A stretch of 64,000 bases of DNA, taken from NCBI RefSeq assembly GCF_032854445.1, contig NC_088301.1:52995187-53059186 (forward strand), in the 5' to 3' direction. Below the pieces are notes generated by a model. The model had not been told where the DNA came from, ran no database searches, and saw nothing but the letters and a program-made list of their open reading frames with translations. A program made the position numbers and the translations under genes. Shown here piece after piece: positions 17,601-20,600 of the stretch. Source of the stretch: Liolophura sinensis (lineage: Eukaryota > Mollusca > Polyplacophora > Chitonida > Chitonidae). Each line of letters begins with the position of its first letter. Position 1 is the stretch's first letter.

Positions 17601-20600
17601 TAATAAGTACTTCACATTATATACCTCTGATCAGATTAAGCCTTGTCTTTTGTGTGTGTAGGCCTATGTATGTTTATTTTTTATGTAATATTTGTGAGTT
17701 CCTTATTTTCTTCTCATGTAACAACCAACAACTGAACATGCGTCACCATGGTTTATGACTGTTTTATTATACAATGTATATCCATATCTGATGTGAATCC
17801 ATGAAGTGACATGAGAATGCAGAACTGCTGCATAAAATATCTTTCGTTTGCAACATTTTATTTACGTGTAGCCAAAGGCCATTTCACACACTGTTGTGGG
17901 ACAGATCTGACCACCACAAATGTAAAATCTGTTGATTTACAGGTCGTGTAATATTCAGCGTGGATATCACAAATTATGACAGACAGTAGCATACCATCTT
18001 GGCCCAAAGTGCATTAATCTCCCCAGTAGACCCAAGGCCTACTTAGACGCTCTGTTCATATTGTACAAATGCTGTTTTTGTCATTCATATTAGCATTTAG
18101 TCGGCATCAGCTTACTAAATAACAAATATCAGTGAAAATTTAATTAGGGATGCCAAAGGTTTATGGGAATGAGAAGATCTCATCAGACAATGCTTAAAAT
18201 TAATTAAATCTCTTTACATTTTTTTTTCTCTGAATTTATTAGGACTGAAGAATTTTTGTATTTCTCACAAACAAGAGATGTTTTGTTTTTTGTTTTCTTT
18301 TATAAAGTACAGTAAAATTATTGAAACACTGTGATTAAGCTGAGGTGCTTTCTCTGACGTACATAATAACTAGGTCAGCATTGCTCTCATTTTAGAAGCC
18401 ACCACAACAAAACTGAAGCATGAAATCCAGTGACAGTCAGTTGCCGAGATCAGCCTCAGTGGTGCTTGGATTTATTTCCATTTGTGTCAGAATTAAGCAG
18501 GAATCCAGTTGTACAACAATCCTACTGTAATTTTGTAAACAATTGATGGAGGTGAGGGGGGGGGATACCAGTACCAGCACCACCTCTCCTGACAAGGCTA
18601 CAACCTGAACCAGGAATACCCCAGCCGTGCCTCTGCTGGCTACTTGTAGACTGTAAAAACGATATAGTAGACGTACTGTATGAACAGTTCACGCAGTGGA
18701 AGAAATATCCTTCTTGTGTGTTGAATTTCCAAGAAAGCTATTTAGCACTTGGTCCTTCATCACTGAAGTCCACAACTTTGGTCTGCCCTAGGCTATGGCT
18801 TAGACTATTATTGTACTGGAAATATCTTTGACTTTAGAGAGCTAGAGTACACGTCACCTTGCTGTCGATAATGGAAAATCGCTGAAGCTGTGACAAGAAG
18901 AAGTTTCACTACACTTTTACTAGGTTGAAAAAATGTTTTAAGATACGTTGAATGGTAGTTTTTTAGTGGACATTAACATTAGCCAGGTTCTTTAAGTTCA
19001 GGCATTTGTCGGACCAACAGGTCCCATGCATGTTAAACTCAAGGTAACTCAATGTACTGAGCACAGATAGCACATGTATGATAAATATGCACAACAGCAT
19101 ATGTCAAAGTGCTATGGTTGTAATTACTTTGTAATTGATGAAGTTGTTGCATGACAAAATCCTGATAAAGTGACATTCTTCATTTTAGATGGTACCATGT
19201 GAAATGGTAGAAAAAGAATTCTGGAGACTAGTTAATTGCATAGAGGAGGATGTTAGTGTGCAGTACGGAGCTGATATCCATGCGTCAGAATGTGGAAGTG
19301 GATTCCCTACCAAAAAGACCAGAGATCTGTTTCCTGATGATGAGGTAGCCACACAGATTGTTCATATTAATTATGCTTAGACTAACAGACTTTAGGCAAA
19401 TTTATTGTAAGCTGTATTGAAGTTTTCTGTCCGAACATGACTGTAAGTGCCTTTTCAATCATTGTGAATGCCTCACTGCATTGCTCAGTTTACCCTATTT
19501 TTCTGCCATAATTAATGCTTAAATCATACATATTTTTGCATTTTCAGGAGTATATCAACTCTGGCTGGAACTTGAACAATCTACCAGTGCTGGAACAAAG
19601 TGTTTTGTGTCATATAAATGCTGACATATCTGGAATGAAGGTATGTGTGTACTTTATATGCACACGATGACAACTTCCACCACAGTGGCACAGTGTGAAT
19701 ATAATGCTTTGTGAAACAGTCTGTAGGGTTTACAGTATTCCATTTCAAGAAGACTGGTATTATTTTGTTCAGTTTAAAGAGCATATTTTTCCCAAACTTT
19801 TTAAGATTTCTTCATTGTATGCAAATCAAAGTTAGTGTTCACCACATTGTACTTACGTTTAGTTTGACTTTTCAGCCTTTCCACTGTCGCATTAATTTTG
19901 AAAGCGAATTCAGTTATACAAGAATAGACATAAATTAAATCAGTACAAGAGGCAGGCTTTCATTACTCAGATCTCTCTACAATGTCAGTACTGAGATGCA
20001 TATCTTTCAGATTCCCTGGTGCTATGTAGGTATGTGTTTCAGCAGTTTTTGCTGGCACATAGAAGACCATTGGAGTTACTCTATTAATTATATGCACTGG
20101 TAAGCCATAGACTCAGCTGATCTGTGTCAGCCCCACCTTCCTGCCTTTTCCCAAACCTTTTGCTTATTGCCTTCTGCTAGTCTGCTTTCATTGAATAGGA
20201 ATGAGTCCCCTTGGATGTCCTCTAAGGTGTGTGGAAACTCCCCAATTGGTATAGCTGGGAAACCCTCCCAAATGTATGTTTCATAACTGCTTCTTTTCCA
20301 GGTACCTTGGTGTTATGTGGGGATGTGCTTTTCTAGTTTCTGTTGGCATAACGAAGACCATTGGAGTTATTCCATCAATTATTTGCATTGGTAAGCTTAG
20401 CTTTGCTTCAGCACGTTGCATGTTCACCCATGTTCACTCTATGTGAGTTAGCACGTATTCAGTAATACGCGTGAATGCATTAAATCCTCTGCAAAGATAA
20501 TATATGCCCATACACTATTATTGTCATGTCAAAGAACAGATTTGAAATACAAGAATTACTAAAGCTGTCCTGGGTGTGTGTTCATGGCCTCTGCAATGGC

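Follow-up and report, generated by a model that had tools for sequence, protein, structure and literature searches.

Tandem homologous exons are a known kind of gene arrangement. In passages of a human survey of tandem duplicated exon substitution events (PMC9741552), they appear as adjacent homologous exons carrying conservative substitutions, derived from old duplications in which one segment of the protein is swapped and the rest stays identical. The exon pair that we describe here, from a KDM5 gene of a chiton, is alike in all of these features. The passages of the survey at hand stress tissue-specific genes and ion channels, whereas the chiton pair lies in a chromatin enzyme, and the words "KDM" and "demethylase" are absent from the survey's main text. 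In KHK, as the same passages relate, both isoforms retain the catalytic Arg of the swapped region; in chiton KDM5, by contrast, a changed residue falls between two metal ligands.

The closest described proteins are the KDM5/JARID1 H3K4 demethylases (human KDM5A-D and fly Lid), which have their domain order, JmjC sequence and HxE...H metal site in common with the product of the chiton gene. In JmjC demethylases, HxE supplies two of the three Fe(II) ligands. Among the matches listed by a full-text literature search (CC-licensed PMC; titles and abstract starts), none was a KDM5 with an alternative exon for the HxE segment, which agrees with a preliminary description of this DNA whose author knew of no such arrangement. 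On this comparison, what appears to be new is the placement of the exon pair in the active site of a KDM5, for which the matches listed held no precedent.

The KDM5 gene and its paired exon

Within the window, by which we mean the whole stretch of DNA analysed (64,000 nucleotides), the gene occupies about 8.46-34 kb on the + strand. Exon matches to human KDM5A (tblastn, with an approximate query sequence) are collinear from 8490 to 33899. A script fitted 24 of the 25 splice junctions up to 30322; the missing junction, and one fit that omitted a small exon, were settled by eye. The start codon was inferred by hand, as were the ends of some linker exons. The features of the gene that concern us are the following.

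8463..30322, + strand: KDM5 gene, from the putative ATG through the conserved body, with 27 exon positions in the model, copies A and B counting as one
19548..19640, + strand: exon upstream of the pair, ending ...DISGMK in phase 0
20011..20099, + strand: duplicated JmjC exon, copy A, with 89 nt, 30 residues and the Fe-binding HIE
20100..20301, + strand: spacer of 202 nt between copies A and B (the would-be A-to-B intron)
20302..20390, + strand: duplicated JmjC exon, copy B, with 89 nt, 30 residues and the Fe-binding HNE
21748..21910, + strand: exon downstream of the pair, which completes the shared Trp codon and continues with GEPKTWYG
22335..22454, + strand: JmjC exon in which RSYHAGFN would supply the third Fe ligand, the His being assigned by alignment with human KDM5A
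33744..33899, + strand: C-terminal PHD finger of KDM5, within ORF 33591-34538

Spliced by hand and joined as far as 30322, the isoform A model has 1350 aa and contains JmjN, ARID, PHD, JmjC, KDM5_C-hel, C5HC2 and PLU-1 in that order, all above the Pfam cut-offs. The match to PF00628 in ORF 33591-34538 scores 30 bits against a cut-off of 24. This architecture bears out the earlier naming of the gene as a KDM5, and H3K4me2/3 demethylase activity is predicted for its product. With ligand roles drawn from the KDM5A alignment, the HxE...H triad for Fe(II) is present, with HIE or HNE in the swapped exon and RSYHAGFN in the exon at 22335-22454.

The copies themselves are flanked alike, by CAG before and GTAAGC after, and have GT-AG sites. 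Both enter in phase 0 and leave in phase 2, the last codon of each being completed by the next exon. The preliminary description had given two 89-nt exons lying 202 nt apart with equal phases and good splice sites, which we confirm, and the fitted gene model agrees with its junctions at 19640 and 21748. Its tally of sequence changes was likewise confirmed: of the 89 bases, 21 are different, and three residues change, which from A to B are I1V, I17N and M28L, position 17 being the one between the Fe ligands His and Glu. By codon (n = 30), 13 are identical, 14 differ silently and 3 change the amino acid, the silent codons holding 16 of the base differences and the amino-acid-changing codons 5.

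When the transcript was spliced in silico, joining both copies or neither gave a premature stop, just as the frame logic of the preliminary description had predicted. Its further claim that a length of 89 nt forces the use of one exon went too far, as the length only makes the wrong products premature-stop transcripts.

Four direct-repeat families of at least 40 nt are found in 8000-34500, and the A/B pair, a repeat of 109 nt with its flanks and 77% alike, is the only one covering modelled exons. A search of the 609-Mb genome (632 contigs) with the exon peptide gave two matches at E ≤ 0.001, both of them at the pair. No third or degenerate copy was found, whether in the introns on either side or at other places in an assembly with gaps and withheld stretches. 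As expected for an animal gene, no relatives of KDM5 were found in viral and prokaryote contigs.

The genome contains four JmjN matches, one of them within the KDM5 gene. At C9:6517857-6521761, two equal-scoring JmjN matches lie 3.8 kb apart and may stem from duplication of an exon or gene at a different Jumonji gene. A script scan of four loci (from 11 matches) for the HxE/D residues of other JmjC genes gave no match. On the - strand of the window, an ORF at 49161-49583 has a SCA7 zinc-binding domain (33 bits vs a cut-off of 23), probably indicating an ataxin-7-like gene near KDM5, and two further ORFs of 352 and 302 aa, at 50414-51469 and 44932-45837, gave no Pfam match at E ≤ 0.01. At C8:37880506-37891931 stands a tandem row of eight beta-sandwich domains of molluscan haemocyanin, which point to a mollusc and support the lophotrochozoan origin suggested in the preliminary description. 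The annelid linker family had no match, a result of little weight.

Constraint on the two copies

The 21 differences between the copies are distributed over codon positions 1, 2 and 3 as 3, 2 and 16. Among codons for the same amino acid, all four of the fourfold degenerate ones and 9 of the 17 two- or threefold degenerate ones have changed. The nonsynonymous distance (dN) is 0.074, and the synonymous distance over these 30 codons is saturated and not computable. The preliminary description had put the silent differences at about 17, close to the 16 that we count by codon and to the 15.5 that Nei-Gojobori path counting gives. Neutral divergence with 21 differences was simulated 20,000 times; changed codons averaged 14.3, with a minimum of 8 and never as few as three, and 31% of the simulated copies were free of stops. 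The earlier suggestion of protein-level selection on both copies is borne out by the silent-site pattern together with these simulations, and both copies look constrained as protein. The selection test covers 30 codons only, and we offer no date.

Outside the coding sequence, the likeness between the copies is less even. The 14 nt that precede the exon, which form the pyrimidine-rich acceptor, are 71% identical, and identity falls to 47% and 37% over 30 nt of the upstream and downstream introns, respectively. The pair looks old because the silent sites look saturated while the introns are unalike; we infer that the duplication is old and that both copies were kept for the protein that they encode.

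Probable use and choice of the copies

The explanation that we favour, and hold to be highly probable from the sequence evidence, is that an old tandem duplication of a KDM5 exon now provides mutually exclusive exons and thereby two isoforms. Both copies would be spliced into mRNA, each transcript taking copy A (HIE) or copy B (HNE), and the gene would yield two full-length KDM5 demethylases. Three residues would distinguish them, including the one that sits between two Fe(II) ligands. Transcripts with both copies or with neither would be removed by nonsense-mediated decay. The choice of copy would be made by splicing factors acting on unequal sites, the acceptor of A being the weaker and that of B the stronger. 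Less certainly, the change from Ile to Asn would tune demethylase activity and not abolish it, since all ligands are kept.

How usual the two states are can be judged from a few relatives. The PDB sequences of human KDM5A and KDM5B, the only KDM5 chains aligned, have H-I-E, as the preliminary description had it for human KDM5, and L at position 28; position 1 of the segment is V in KDM5A and L in KDM5B. In the plant relatives rice Os05g0196500 (which we take to be JMJ703) and JMJ14, the motif is H-V-E, and position 28 is M in the first and L in the second. By the standard of this small set, a hydrophobic residue between the ligands is usual, as in copy A; the Asn of copy B is unusual, but at the other two changed positions copy B is more usual than A.

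These comparisons bear on a sub-case of the favoured explanation, in which the exons are exclusive but their changes are functionally near neutral and the duplication was kept for regulation. Its probability overlaps with that of mutually exclusive exons as a whole, and we consider it possible, if tentatively so. The V/I and M/L changes are conservative, the rice protein having M like copy A, and the Pfam JmjC scores are nearly equal (155.3 bits for isoform A and 154.3 for isoform B); the replacement of Ile by Asn between two Fe ligands, however, is not conservative, at a position that is I in human KDM5A and KDM5B and V in both plant relatives.

Nothing marks either predicted isoform as inactive, as both copies retain the two Fe ligands and fit the JmjC profile about equally well. 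Fly Lid may carry H-N-E, a motif for which the full-text literature search (CC-licensed PMC) gave no match; if Lid has N there, Asn would be compatible with an active enzyme. When His637 and Glu639 of Lid were changed to Ala, the removal of H3K4me3 in oocytes was abolished and meiotic chromosome functions were largely kept, according to part of the published account (PMC4975413), so KDM5 has catalysis-free roles as well.

As for the means by which mutually exclusive exons might be chosen, a rough matrix scores the acceptor of copy A at 1.1, among the weakest of the gene, and its donor at 5.8, while the acceptor of copy B scores 7.0, level with the gene's best, and its donor 3.6; on this matrix, all four values lie inside the spread of the gene's other junctions. 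Steric hindrance does not explain exclusion, the spacer of 202 nt being, as judged from length only, not unusually short. Size is no bar to splicing from A to B, since the 26 modelled introns include 4 of 119-180 nt, below the length of the spacer.

Pairing between introns gave no signal in a crude best-duplex test, which could miss short elements: for the three main pairs, 123, 142 and 112 of 200 dinucleotide shuffles were as strong or stronger, and for the spacer against the whole downstream intron, 48 of 50. Single inverted repeats occur among the matches listed (25 of 53 pairs), for example 20308-20318 with 20863-20873 (11 nt), and we estimate them to be what chance would give in a 2.1-kb stretch. 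The donors of A and B do not look like the consensus of the minor (U12) class. The means left would be selection by splicing factors, with nonsense-mediated decay clearing the wrong products. One sequence motif lies close to the donor of copy B:

20417..20422, + strand: UGCAUG, beginning at +27 after the copy B donor, one of ten motif patterns tried

We take UGCAUG to be an RBFOX-type motif. It occurs 56 times in the window against 59 expected, and its presence after copy B is a weak lead only that may be due to chance. At 20667-20698, in the intron after copy B, a (TG)9 run passes into 15 G; it could bind GU-binding splicing factors or be a weak spot of the sequencing.

The inequality of the acceptors would also suit a different reading, namely that normal mRNA contains a single copy. 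The second one would then be either a relic that is seldom used or a poison exon, its joint inclusion lowering KDM5 levels via nonsense-mediated decay. The copy used would then probably be B, with its stronger acceptor, or else A, with its family-typical Ile. The early stop that follows from joint inclusion of A and B fits this reading, as does a spacer that is spliceable by length, but the protein is almost unchanged in both copies despite silent sites that look saturated, and a poison exon needs no such conservation of its amino acids; we therefore regard the use of one copy as improbable.

An assembly artefact (collapsed haplotypes) or a recent functionless duplication is exceedingly unlikely: although part of the Liolophura japonica report (PMC11068029) describes a heterozygous genome (about 1.2%) and a HiFi depth of 14X, the copies differ at 21 of 89 bases amid unlike introns, and their differences are almost all silent, which neither an artefact nor neutral drift gives (0 of 20,000 simulations), so that with silent sites looking saturated we rejected both a recent duplication and a haplotype duplicate. 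The same source lists public RNA-seq from five tissues of Liolophura japonica, namely digestive gland, foot, gill, gonad and heart, under PRJNA973839 (SAMN35319765-69).

Possible consequences for KDM5 chemistry

KDM5A is reported to respond to oxygen as a demethylase, and one table puts its O2 Km near 90 µM (PMC10371230). According to excerpts of another source (PMC6548480), KDM5A resembles FIH in its O2 affinity in vitro, which 5B and 5C do not, and the KDM5A residues that affect the O2 response map to JmjN and PHD1. The chiton isoforms belong to the same family as this oxygen-responsive enzyme, but its O2-response residues, as mapped in those excerpts, lie outside the HxE segment, and a role for the middle residue of HxE in O2 handling by the chiton isoforms is speculation. 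That splicing selects, through an HIE/HNE switch, between two enzymes differing in their dependence on O2, 2-oxoglutarate or iron seems rather unlikely; were it true, an animal of the tidal zone could go on using one form of KDM5 during inhibition of the other.

The usual effect of mutually exclusive homologous exons is to fine-tune a protein. Here a chromatin eraser has two of its three metal ligands in the swapped segment, with a changed residue between them. If Lid has N between its ligands, the chiton gene may keep side by side two states of which other phyla have each fixed one. Should both forms be made, the chiton would have a demethylase with an active site chosen by splicing, and the pair would be a natural experiment on how the middle residue of HxE sets JmjC chemistry.
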